From: Rhodothermales bacterium
GTDB taxonomy: Bacteria > Bacteroidota > Rhodothermia > Rhodothermales > VXPQ01
NCBI GenBank assembly: GCA_022821845.1
Contig: JAJECT010000029.1
Coordinates: 1-64,000 of the forward strand
DNA length: 64,000 nt
Reading direction: 5' to 3'
Below, one piece after another: positions 8,709-63,715 of this stretch. The position numbers were made by a program, and so were the translations under genes. The notes under the pieces are model-generated. The model had not been told where the DNA came from, made no database searches, and saw nothing but the letters and a program-made list of their open reading frames with translations. The number at the start of each line of letters is the position of its first letter. Positions within the stretch are counted from its first letter, which is position 1.

Positions 8709-9417
8709 CCAGCCGACAAACCGCTCCGCGGCGGCGGATTCCGGATCGGAAAACCGCTCGCGGACCGCCCCGGCCCACCCGAACGATCCGCCGAACGATC
8801 CGCGGAGCGACCGCCGGGCAAGCGGCGCAAACGAGGCGCGGCGCAAGAAAAACGAACGCGGATCTGGAGAAGACATGGGCGCTTGTACAGGCGCTTGGAA
8901 GTACGCGGTATACTGTACGGTATACTTGAAGTATACTCTTCAGGATACTCTGATTAAATCCGCGAAGCTCAGAGGCATGCGAGGGGTGCGCTGGCAAGGA
9001 ATGACGAAGCAATGTGGTAGGTCCCACATAATGAGGAATGACACAGCCAGCGTGCCGCTCGCAGCCTCCCGAAGGGCGCGTCACGGACGCAACGTACCGA
9101 ATCTACTGTATTTTCTGCTGATTTCAATGATCCGGGCATGACGGTCTTTGCGGGCAATAGTGACGCGCTGAGCGAAGCGGATTTGATCAGAGTATCCTTC
9201 AGTATACCATTCGCCGGGGGTTCATGGCAGGCCGACCGCCTTCGCGGACCCGCCCATCGAACGGATCAAAACGCGTTATGTTGTGTCCGACGTCGTATTC
9301 TGTAGCGATTCGCAGGCGGTGCCCCTTGACACTGTCCGCCAGAAAACCTATTTGTTATTTGTAACCATGCTTTTTCGTACCCAATGCTTTCCCGATTCCC
9401 CGACCGTCCGTAAAACC
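8709..9417. other. Intergenic region holding the first structured repeat
   Basis: This divergent gap between the cytochrome and sulfatase genes holds no convincing gene. Its centre is the inverted-repeat element at 8942-9198. Flanking it on both sides are several GTATAC palindromes (8907-8936 and 9202-9207), which extend the terminal repeats. The part nearest the cytochrome could be an N-terminal extension if the ATG at 8876 is used instead. Confidence 0.6.
8942..9198. mobile_element. MITE-like structured repeat, copy A
   Basis: A 257-bp non-coding element bounded by inverted repeats: left GGATACTCTGATTAAATCC, right (reverse complement) GGATACTCTGATCAAATCC. A near-identical copy lies at 23489-23746. 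Inside, GCGAGGGGTGCGCTGGC and GCCAGCGTGCCGCTCGC pair as a long internal hairpin enclosing a smaller stem ATGTGG/CCACAT. There is no ORF of note, so it would have to be mobilised in trans, as for a MITE. It may also supply promoters to the divergent cytochrome and sulfatase genes. Confidence 0.75.
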
Positions 9418-22586: not shown

Positions 22587-23342
22587 TCAGAAGGACAGGT
22601 CGGCAAGGAGTTCCTCGTTCAAGTCCAGGGTGGTGAAGACCGCCTGCACGTCCGGATGGTCGTCTATGCGTTCGATCAAGCGCAATACTTTCCGGGCGGC
22701 GTCGTCGGGAAGCGCGACGGCGGCGGAGGGTTCCCGAATCAACTGCGCCGCGGCGATCTCGACGCCCGCCTGTTCAAGCGCCGCGCGCACCGCGTCGAGC
22801 AAGTCGGGCGGCGTTGCGACGACATAGGCGTCGCCTTCCTGTTGCATATCCTCGGCGCCTGCTTCCACCACAATGTCGAACAGGGCCAGTTCGTCGCGCG
22901 GCTGTCCGGCAGCGGCAATTTCTATCATGCCTTTGCGTTCGAACAGATACCCCACCGAGCCGGACTTGCCCAGGCTGCCGCCCCCCTTGCCGAAAAGGTG
23001 GCGCAGGTCCGCCACCGTCCGGTTTCGGTTGTCCGTCAGCGTTTCCACGAACACCGCCACGCCATGCGGGCCATACCCCTCGTAGGTCGCCTCTTCGTAG
23101 TCTTCTCCCTGAATTTCCCCGGTGCCCCGCTTGATGGCGCGCGCTATATTTTCCTTGGGCATGTTTTCGGCCTTGGCCTTCTCGACCGCAAGCGCCAGCG
23201 CGGCGTTCATGGCGGGATCGCCTCCGCCTTCCCGGGCGGCTATCGTAACGTCACGAGAAATCCGCGCCCATACTTTCGACTTGCGCTGATCGGTTTTGGC
23301 TTTCTGCCGCTTGATTTTGGACCATTTATTGTGACCGGCCAT
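22587..23342 (-). CDS. yebC: YebC/PmpR family protein
   Basis: Begins MAGHNKWSKIKRQKAKTD, the near-invariant family start, and contains ENMPKENIARAIKRG and YEGYGPHGVAVFVE. Members act as transcription regulators (PmpR) or, as shown more recently, as ribosome-associated factors aiding polyproline translation; which applies cannot be told from sequence. It heads a yebC-ruvC operon. A repeat-family terminus sits about 35 bp upstream of its start and might carry its promoter. Confidence 0.94.
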   Translation of the reverse strand: MAGHNKWSKIKRQKAKTDQRKSKVWARISRDVTIAAREGGGDPAMNAALALAVEKAKAENMPKENIARAIKRGTGEIQGEDYEEATYEGYGPHGVAVFVETLTDNRNRTVADLRHLFGKGGGSLGKSGSVGYLFERKGMIEIAAAGQPRDELALFDIVVEAGAEDMQQEGDAYVVATPPDLLDAVRAALEQAGVEIAAAQLIREPSAAVALPDDAARKVLRLIERIDDHPDVQAVFTTLDLNEELLADLSF

Positions 23343-23376: not shown

Positions 23377-23486
23377 GGATACGCGGATCAAAACCTGACG
23401 TACCTGCTACCGCGCCAGGGGCGATATTGTTCTGGCGACTTCTTCGCATCGTTTCGCAGCAGATCCGGACAGAACGCAGCGTATCC
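23377..23486. repeat. Short inverted-repeat element abutting repeat copy B
   Basis: A 110-bp stretch framed by GGATACGC and its exact inverse GCGTATCC. The left 18 bases GGATACGCGGATCAAAAC recur exactly at 44947. The right end sits against the left end of repeat copy B, forming the palindrome GTATCCTTAGGATAC. It may be a deleted relative of the larger element. It also covers the yebC upstream region. Confidence 0.55.
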
Positions 23487-23488
23487 TT

Positions 23489-23746
23489 AGGATACTCTGA
23501 TTAAATCCGCGAAGCTCAGAGGCTGCGAGGGGTGCGCTGGCAAGGAATGACGAAGCAGCGTGGCAGGCCCCACGTAATGAGGAATGACACAGCCAGCGTG
23601 CCCCTCGCAGCCTCCCGCAGGGCGCGTCACGCCCCCTGCCACCCGAATCTACGGTGTTTTTCTGCTGATTTCTAACGATACAAGCATGACACCCTTGACA
23701 TGCGACAGTGACGCGCTGAGCGAAGTGGCTTTAATCAGCGTATCCT
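23489..23746. mobile_element. MITE-like structured repeat, copy B
   Basis: A 258-bp non-coding copy of the element at 8942-9198, clearly alignable along its whole length with short differing patches near 23630-23700. Terminal inverted repeats are GGATACTCTGATTAAATCC and (reverse complement of the right end) GGATACGCTGATTAAAGCC. The internal hairpin GGCTGCGAGGGGTGCGCTGG / CCAGCGTGCCCCTCGCAGCC is better paired than in copy A and encloses GCGTGG/CCACGT. No ORF supports self-mobility. Small ORFs in the track here are artefacts. Confidence 0.75.
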
Positions 23747-23888
23747 TAACAAATGGGCTGCATAATGGCTATCTTCAGGGATAATCTTCGATTTCCTTGC
23801 GGCGGACGCCATGGGCGGCCCCCGACGTCCGCATTCCGCCGCCAGACGCGACAAATACTCCGAAGCAGGCGAAACAGCCTGTTCGGCC

Positions 23889-24500
23889 ATGCCTGAAAAG
23901 AACGCCCAGACAATCCCTTCGGAATCCGCCGAGCAGGACAAGCGCTGCGTGGCCCGCGCCCTCGCGGGGGACCAGAGGGCGTACGCCGAACTGCTTGAAA
24001 AGTACCACAGCGCGATTCGCCGCCACATCCAGAAAATTATTCGGGACCGCATGATCGTGGACGATCTGGTCCAGGAGGTTTTCGCGAAGGCGTTCGCGGC
24101 GCTGTCGTCGTATTCGTCCGCGTACGCCTTTTCCACCTGGTTGTACAAGATCGCCCAGAACCATGCGATCGACTATAACCGGAAGAAAAAACTCCCTACG
24201 CTGTCCATCGACCAGCCCGTCGAGACGCGCGATGGAGAAATGAAGATAGAATTGCCGGATACGACGTACCGACCGGACCGGCACATCGTGCAAGACGAAC
24301 GCAAAACGCTGATTCAGGAAGCCATCGACGCGCTTCCGGCGAAATACAACCGCGTCATCGTATTGCGCCATCAGCACGAAAAAAGTTACGAAGAAATCGC
24401 GCAGGAGCTCGATTTGCCACTGGGCACGGTAAAAGCGCATCTTTTCCGGGCGCGCCAGGCGCTCAACAAATACCTGCGCGATCGCCGCGACCTGCATTGA
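23889..24500 (+). CDS. ECF-type RNA polymerase sigma factor
   Basis: A sigma-70 family member with only regions 2 and 4, so of the extracytoplasmic-function type. The ATG at 23889 (MPEKNAQ) gives a compact N-terminus of 203 residues; the ATG at 23811 would add 26 Arg/Ala-rich residues. Region 2 includes [12 protein letters not shown] and [18 protein letters not shown]; region 4 is [42 protein letters not shown]. No anti-sigma gene follows; purB starts 29 bp downstream. Its stimulus and promoters are not visible. Repeat copy B lies just upstream. Confidence 0.92.
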
Positions 24501-39721: not shown

Positions 39722-39800
39722 GGATACGCTGATCGGAAGCATTTGGGTCTTGCGATATTTTCGATTGGAACCCAGCCGGTTCGTACGGGTATCTTCGCAA

Positions 39801-39899
39801 GGGCAAGTTCCGCACGGTCTGCTCCCTGCGAATCCTGTCAGGGCCGGAAGGCAGCAGCAGTAAGCAGGTCGAAGCGACGCGATGCGGGGAGCTTGCCCC
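39801..39899 (+). ncRNA. ffs: Signal recognition particle RNA, small bacterial type
   Basis: Contains the near-universal apical motif GTCAGGGCCGGAAGGCAGCA (39838 on), with the closing stem GGGCAAG at the 5' end and CTTGCCC at the 3' end. The RNA pairs with Ffh to target membrane proteins. It ends in a terminator hairpin. The size of about 99 nt is the 4.5S type without an Alu domain. Confidence 0.93.
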
Positions 39900-39907
39900 T
39901 CTTTTTT
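39885..39907 (+). terminator. Intrinsic terminator of the SRP RNA
   Basis: GGGGAGCTTGCCCC forms a short GC hairpin, followed by TCTTTTTT. It doubles as the 3' end of the SRP RNA closing stem. Confidence 0.7.
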
Positions 39908-44946: not shown

Positions 44947-44971
44947 GGATACGCGGATCAAAACCGCTTCG
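44947..44971. repeat. Solo terminus of the structured-repeat family upstream of the HIT gene
   Basis: GGATACGCGGATCAAAAC is identical to the left end of the 23377 element and continues CGCTTCG, similar to the TIR interior of the larger copies. No matching opposite end is visible within 200 bp, so it is a solo end or a promoter-like box for the minus-strand HIT gene. Confidence 0.5.
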
Positions 44972-62416: not shown

Positions 62417-62878
62417 ATGCGTACGGTATTTGAGCGCGAAGCTGCGCGTCTTCTGGCGCGTGAAGCAGATCTAAAAAAGCAAGCGGCGGTGGCGGAGGCG
62501 CGTAAAAGGGCCGCGCTGGCACGTACGGAAGCAAGGCGAAGAGAACAAGCGCGCCCGGTTGTTGCAGCGTACGAAGCGCAGGCGCGGGCATGGAATGCGG
62601 AAGCGGATTATGATTTTGTTGAATACGACGGTTTCAACGAACCCAAGCAAAGGCAAGCGGCGGGCGCGAGAATCAACGCTGCACGGGCGGAAGGGGGCGG
62701 TTCCTTTGCGCGTGAACAGGCTTCGCGGGCAAACCTGCACGCTTTGCGGGCGCGGGAGAATGCTTCAGATTGGCGGAGTACTGCAAGGCGTAAACCGGGC
62801 GGCCTGAAGGAACTGGCGAATAAGGCGGCGCAGGCGTGGGAAAGCGCAGCCCAGGCATGGGAAGAGGTAGGGGAGTAG
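62417..62878 (+). CDS. Hypothetical Ala/Arg-rich helical protein
   Basis: A 153-residue, strongly charged, alanine-rich ORF likely to be a long helix or coiled coil (REAARLLAREADLKKQAAVAEARKRAALA). A less helical middle contains EADYDFVEYDGFNEP. No signal, membrane segment or known domain. A stretch with the same sequence around GCAGCGTACGAAGCGCAGGC recurs at 63489 in degraded form. Not recognised. Confidence 0.5.
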   Translation: MRTVFEREAARLLAREADLKKQAAVAEARKRAALARTEARRREQARPVVAAYEAQARAWNAEADYDFVEYDGFNEPKQRQAAGARINAARAEGGGSFAREQASRANLHALRARENASDWRSTARRKPGGLKELANKAAQAWESAAQAWEEVGE

Positions 62879-62921
62879 CTCCGGGGCTTGTGCAGATCGA
62901 CGAGGCGGCGTATCTTGTCGG

Positions 62922-62944
62922 CAGGCGGAAACCCGTTTCGCCGG
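62922..62944. repeat. Repeated hairpin, copy 1
   Basis: CAGGCGGAAACCCGTTTCGCCGG folds as GGCGgAAAC/GTTTCGCC with one bulged G. It lies 28 bp before the 62973 ORF. A second copy lies 33 bp before the 63716 ORF. Each is preceded by GCTTGTGCnGATCG at about 35 bp. Confidence 0.55.
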
Positions 62945-62972
62945 AGCCTGATCAACGAAAACCCCGAATACA

Positions 62973-63206
62973 ATGGCAAGCAATGCACTAAAAGACGAAA
63001 TATGCTGTTTTGTTAAAGATAACCCCGGATGTCATTATGGAGATATAAAAACGGCTTTAGGGTTGGGTTATTATCCTGCTGAACCTGTTCACGAGCTTAT
63101 TCAAGAGGGTAGAATAGAACACCGGGGTTTCCCGAAAGCGCAGGCCAAGAATGCTAACTTGTTCATTACGTGGCAGGAGGCACAGGGCCAGGGCATCTTG
63201 AAGTAA
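62973..63206 (+). CDS. Small winged-helix-like DNA-binding protein
   Basis: A 77-residue ORF with the pattern of an ArsR/MarR-like winged helix: KDEICCFVKDNPGCHYGDIKTALGLGYYPAEPVHELIQEGRIEHRG, where GCHYGDIKTALGL would be the first helices of the HTH and the glycine/Arg stretch the wing. No effector domain. A role as a small regulator, possibly of an element in this region, is inferred. Composition is more AT-rich than neighbours. Confidence 0.6.
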   Translation: MASNALKDEICCFVKDNPGCHYGDIKTALGLGYYPAEPVHELIQEGRIEHRGFPKAQAKNANLFITWQEAQGQGILK

Positions 63207-63715
63207 GAGCCCGTTCTGCTGCTTTCCGCGCCGCGAACGCAGGTCGCATCAAGCGGGCAATTGACCGCAAGCGTAGGGGACCCCTGGCGCGAACGGACAG
63301 GGCGGCGAGTAGACCGGTGGGGGGCTTTACTCTCTATGATTATTTTGCTTTGGTGTTACCTTGTTAGGCGTGTAACCCTGACATAGACCGGAGACAAGCC
63401 GTGCCCTACGCGGACCCCGAAAAGCAACGCGAAGCGAATCGCGGAGAATACGGCTGCGGCTTTGACTCCCTTGCAACGAAAGATTATTGCAGCGTACGAA
63501 GCGCAGGCGGCGGCCTATGCTGCGGAGGCGCGGACTTCGACCGACCCGGCGCGTGATTAAAGGCGCGAACGGTTTCGGCGGGTGCCGACGCTTTCGGACC
63601 GTGCGGCCTGCATTCTGCGGGCGGCTTGTGCGGATCGGCTGCGGGGGGTACCTTTTCTACGGGCGGAAACCCGTTTCGCCCGATTCACGAAATCAGACAA
63701 CCACAGGAGGTAGCC
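63207..63715. other. Gene-poor stretch with decayed duplicate of the 62417 region
   Basis: No intact gene is supported. From 63483 a 25-codon stretch (IIAAYEAQAAAYAAEA) matches residues about 48-63 of the 62417 product and then stops, so it looks like a remnant. The upstream GTG at 63401 starts PYADPEKQREANR, similar to the start of small phage-type proteins, but runs into another frame. The hairpin copy 2 lies at the right. Confidence 0.5.
63660..63682. repeat. Repeated hairpin, copy 2
   Basis: CGGGCGGAAACCCGTTTCGCCCG: the same hairpin as copy 1, with two more base pairs at the foot of the stem. It lies 33 bp before the 63716 ORF. Confidence 0.55.

Follow-up and report, generated by a model that had tools for sequence, protein, structure and literature searches.

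The window, the whole 64,000-nucleotide stretch of Rhodothermales DNA that we analysed, contains copies A and B of the same element of about 255 bp, which is bounded by terminal inverted repeats (GGATACTCTGAT..) with duplication of a 4-bp target. Copy B is located between a putative YebC-like gene on the minus strand and a putative sigma-70-like gene on the plus strand, and the interval in which the preliminary description had reported a nested hairpin is part of this larger repeat. The features are:

8943..9197 (+), 255 bp: full element, copy A, with TTCA on either flank as the target duplication
8972..9068 (+): inner hairpin of copy A, from its predicted fold
22587-23342 (-): gene upstream of copy B, putatively YebC-like, as judged from its own sequence
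23490..23745 (+), 256 bp: full element, copy B, covering repeat families D1-D3, with boundaries taken from the inverted repeats
23490..23508 (+): left terminal inverted repeat of copy B, GGATACTCTGATTAAATCC
23519..23614 (+): inner hairpin of copy B, from its predicted folds and a covariance model match
23542..23557 (+): near-invariant internal loop of copy B, 5' side, AAGGAATGACGAAGCA, conservation 0.94-1.00 in 164 copies
23558..23575 (+): nested stem and apical loop of copy B, GCGTGG caggcc CCACGT, with covariation of pairs 2 and 3
23576..23591 (+): near-invariant internal loop of copy B, 3' side, AATGAGGAATGACACA
23727..23745 (-): right terminal inverted repeat of copy B, GGATACGCTGATTAAAGCC as read on the minus strand
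23811-24500 (+): gene downstream of copy B, putatively sigma-70-like

Within the 3' side of the internal loop positions 14 and 16 are variable (0.66 and 0.64), the others being 0.98-1.00 conserved. Solitary GGATACGCGGATCAAAACC-type ends are present at 23377-23395, directly adjoining copy B, and at 44947-44965; these are possibly leftovers of related elements.

The inner hairpin of copy B is predicted to have a 23-bp stem, a 16/16-nt internal loop, a 6-bp nested stem and a 6-nt apical loop. Folded as RNA it gave -62.2 kcal/mol (z -8.7) and the copy A hairpin gave -52.6 kcal/mol (z -7.4); for each of them 0 of 200 shuffles reached the same stability. The whole element is predicted to form a single rod, the ends of which are paired with one another. 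The nested stem reads ATGTGG/CCACAT in copy A and GCGTGG/CCACGT in copy B, as originally reported, and the reported replacement of T-A by C-G at pair 2 is correct; of 164 copies, pair 2 is T-A in 129, C-G in 34 and another combination in 1. Pair 1 also differs, being A-T in copy A and a G.T wobble in copy B, a one-sided change absent from the preliminary description. The further statement that the outer stem of copy B is fully paired is correct only when two adjacent G.U wobbles are counted as pairs, and the outer stem of copy A has one G.G mismatch plus one bulged base. The Rfam 15 covariance models gave no match over the element up to an E value of 5. We also considered an intrinsic terminator and rejected that reading because no T run follows the stem.

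The flanks of the copies record insertion. Identical 4-bp flanks were found for 50 of 165 copies versus 12.8 by shuffling (maximum of 22 in 500 shuffles), the commonest target duplication being TTAA, and sister species have empty sites with a single copy of the target (e.g., L044 versus L064 and L034 versus L213). When a block of sister genome G002 was compared with another genome of the genus, G004, 4 of the 17 full copies were full-length at the same site and 8 were missing from aligned flanks, with the remaining 5 assigned to neither class. Copies shortened by deletion to 57-188 bp, still with their ends, also occur (L108, L142, L160, L175, sample position 738280 and others), some of which, at 187-188 bp, have retained the hairpin and lost the right part.

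The target duplication together with the long inverted ends indicates a DDE transposase, and the 4-bp length fits the IS5 family. Three DDE_Tnp_1 relics of G004 (L230, L223 and L227) terminate in TTGATCAGAGTATCC, identical to the right end commonly found in the element, and L230 alone also has the left end GGATACTCTGATT; in L230 the DDE_Tnp_1 remnant is flanked by GGATACTCTGATTTAATCC at 1175 and by TTGATCAGAGTATCC, which ends at 1840. The relic family is IS5 (NF033581, E 5e-40 in NCBIfam; PF01609, E 1e-22 in Pfam). The element is short and multicopy, lacks a transposase gene and has terminal inverted repeats plus a target duplication of fixed length, as is characteristic of bacterial MITEs, and its ends are common to an IS5-family element, as in IS5-family-derived MITEs. 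Hence, given the ends held in common with the relics, we consider it very likely that the element, found in one genus of Rhodothermales, is an IS5-family MITE. Only one of the six genomes (G004) yielded IS5 relics with such ends, all of them broken; an uninterrupted homologue of 329 aa is present in another genus, with ends that do not clearly match. Nine intervals between end pairs 1.2-2.7 kb apart were considered as candidate autonomous elements and rejected, as they hold ordinary genes and no transposase. Other IS5-type genes (L224, L228 and L226) were also rejected because their ends, where seen, are unrelated and of the type TAGGGC.TGTTAACACTA. The gene L226 (G000:C3:65614-65988) is just beyond the window, and it is the L226 relatives in two sister genomes that have the TAGGGC.TGTTAACACTA ends, unlike those of the element.

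About 40 copies were scored in the genome of the window (G000), which contains at least that number, and all six genomes of the genus (G000 plus five others) carry dozens of copies or more each. BLAST searches of 60 genomes of the order found the element absent outside this one genus. A covariance model built on the inner hairpin matched 6 of 114 genomes of the order, all of the same genus, and 1 of 297 genomes in a draw from the phylum, for which scoring was limited to 14 candidates per genome. The named records carrying the element pattern are Rhodothermales MAGs, and Verrucomicrobia pattern matches (L090 and L094) were rejected because they are without the ends and resemble simple AATGACGAA repeats. 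Contigs C5, C10, C15, C20, C31, C37, C43 and C44 of G000 start or stop inside an element copy, so the element family also accounts for assembly breaks in this genome. The analysis used samples of 800 kb of G002, which contained 34 full copies, and 400 kb of G004. In the G002 sample, with gene calls from a simple hexamer method, 33 of the 34 full copies were intergenic and there was no orientation bias relative to genes (in tandem contexts, 9 same and 14 opposite), a result that speaks against a fixed role within a single transcript context.

Is the pairing maintained, as had been proposed from two copies? An R-scape-like G-test with a phylogenetic null gave no significant pair, the best helix pair having an E value of 0.1, by a statistic that is blind to how often a change recurred. 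We also counted branches changing at both columns of each of 31,375 column pairs, using an alignment of 151 distinct copies and a FastTree tree. This event-coincidence test was chosen after the G-test result was known, pair 2 having already been named in the preliminary description. Nested-stem pair 2 was the top coincident change of the 31,375 column pairs (10 observed, 0.65 expected, E 6e-5), and with pair 3 (8 observed, 0.53 expected, E 0.003) made up the only two pairs below an E value of 0.05. The helix pairs totaled 65 coincident changes versus 14.6 expected and the background pairs 0.89 times expectation, and nested-stem double changes exceeded those of all non-helix column pairs. In a separate 70-copy hairpin alignment 0 of 500 shuffles matched the covariation, all five measures being above every shuffle and every slid control. 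The covariation that the preliminary description anticipated in a larger alignment was thus seen by event coincidence and by shuffling and not by the G-test. The repeats are short and their tree is weak, and the event counts could be raised by conversion between copies; however, gene conversion cannot create new paired alleles, and the common nested-stem alleles are all paired. These comparisons of copies indicate that the nested stem is kept paired while its sequence changes.

Changes from Watson-Crick pairs indicated which strand folds. There were 159 steps to G.U versus 94 to A.C (p 5e-5), and unpaired sites were symmetric (C>T 250, G>A 245). In Fisher tests of the G.U excess against unpaired sites, G-C pairs gave p 0.005 and A-T pairs p 0.15, which is not significant. 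The excess of G.U steps favors the plus strand, which is probably the folded one, as RNA or as single-stranded DNA. The earlier suggestion that a folded RNA or single-stranded DNA matters is backed by this asymmetry insofar as it concerns plus-strand folding, with no tie to a host function.

No G.U intermediate was seen at nested-stem pairs 2 and 3 in 164 copies, which counts against stepwise selection on an RNA because such selection would predict one. It is rather what DNA mechanics without selection might give, hairpin-templated correction or conversion between copies swapping the nested stem as a block, and the double changes seen in a single orthologous locus with almost nothing else changed are of the same kind. 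However, the 23-bp stem, expected to be the better substrate, has more mismatches and less covariation than the 6-bp stem, and conversion leaves unexplained both the pairing of every common stem allele and the excess of G.U over A.C. We therefore regard this explanation as rather unlikely.

The most conserved part of the element is the 16 + 16-base internal loop, which exceeds both the stems and the transposition ends (copies diverge by 0.047 in the loop, 0.098 in the ends, 0.14-0.18 in the stems and 0.33 in the right part). In 14 clean orthologous pairs, summed, which have apparently stayed in place from the time the species separated, the loop differed at 3 of 448 bases and the right part at 6 of 995, and hence the loop has no special protection after insertion. 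A loop that is the most conserved part among copies and yet unprotected in orthologues suggests that it matters for spreading and not for the resident copy. As most insertions are also unshared between species, the fold is probably of use to the element in its own spread, a reading of sequence divergence that rests on few substitutions.

Copies shared by G002 and G004 differed at 8 of 998 bases, versus 56 of 476 in their intergenic flanks and 15% at third codon positions. This near-identity could stem from constraint in place or conversion, from gene flow between the species or from effects of assembly. Individual same-site copies, nearly identical in two species with intergenic flanks about 12% different, include L105:963/L142:6489 and G002 642152-642394, among others. 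In the shared copy L026/L315, two of the three differences are a compensated pair in the nested stem. That compensated double change at one site, the resemblance of the 8 of 998 figure to constraint in place and the almost exclusively intergenic setting would all suit selection for a function that the transcribed hairpin serves in the host at many sites, acting on mRNA stability or processing of neighbours as proposed for Correia/NEMIS and ERIC. We consider such a function improbable, to about the same degree as the DNA mechanics, because the copies have no preferred orientation to genes, most insertions are not common to G002 and G004, and the low divergence spans the whole element, including parts freely variable among copies, which is not predicted by a sequence-specific host function. 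A small peptide (MTKQCGRPHIMRNDTAS..) encoded by the core, with coding as the reason for its conservation, is highly improbable: an ATG in each loop does open a frame (median 46 codons among copies), but ORF length is mostly 13 to 71 codons, the nested stem swaps Cys, Arg and His codons freely with pairing kept, and third positions are only slightly more variable than the others.

The explanation we prefer, to which we assign a probability of roughly 0.5 with the role of the fold included, is an IS5-family MITE having the hairpin as its structured core. An IS5-type transposase supplied in trans would recognize the inverted ends of about 19 bp and insert the element at TTAA-like sites with duplication of 4 bp; the ends, the duplications and the empty sites are those observed above, and the transposase would be the agent that links them. 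The plus strand would form a long rod with its ends mutually paired and an inner arm that holds the 23-bp stem, the near-invariant, purine-rich internal loop and the 6-bp nested stem. Most simply, the folded strand would be RNA read through from neighbouring genes, or possibly single-stranded DNA during transposition. The fold may offer the loop to a factor of the host or of transposition, or may protect the element, with selection acting on spreading lineages and not on every copy in residence. Some derivatives with target duplications lack the hairpin and were counted against this explanation; they may be later deletions. The narrower proposal that a folded plus strand (RNA or single-stranded DNA) with the loop as a docking site is needed for the spread of an IS5-type MITE is doubtful.

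The element resembles other folded MITEs in how it works, such as BOX and RUP of Streptococcus pneumoniae, which are short, intergenic and of high copy number, with tightly folded predicted RNAs and paired ends (PMC3049150). The element is likewise short, intergenic and high copy, and its ends pair in the predicted fold. The RUP ends match a host IS element, IS630-Spn1 (PMC2229807), whereas those of the element match an IS5-family element, with 4 bp duplicated, a Rhodothermales host and no Rfam match. Relative to BOX and RUP the unusual features are the covariation and the near-invariant internal loop. The Porphyromonas gingivalis MITEs BrickBuilt, MITE293 and MITE700 also have ends that match IS5-family elements (PMC4596501) and in this the element is like them; BrickBuilt carries a 23-nt minisatellite, whereas the element carries a conserved hairpin in which a stem covaries. 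Correia/NEMIS and ERIC are mobile intergenic palindromes having a transcribed stem that has been proposed to influence the processing or stability of mRNA (PMC2229807). The element is also a mobile intergenic palindrome, but one that shows no orientation bias to genes. Like REP/REPIN it is a high-copy intergenic palindrome; unlike REP/REPIN with RAYT (Y1), it has a target duplication and long inverted ends and is without a Y1 transposase. As PF01797 was absent from all six genomes (controls positive), a REP/RAYT origin was rejected.

A limited literature search found no paper that tested covariation in a bacterial MITE. Folded RNA structures are often drawn for bacterial MITEs, and with about 160 distinct copies in related genomes, having both shared and unshared insertions, one can ask whether it is the host or the element for which the fold is maintained. 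Elsewhere in the window, two short direct repeat families of 61 and 47 nt lie within about 1 kb at 62559-63683 and are possibly duplicated gene segments, and a Bacteroidales small SRP RNA (Rfam RF04183, 81.6 bits) is found at 39794-39902.
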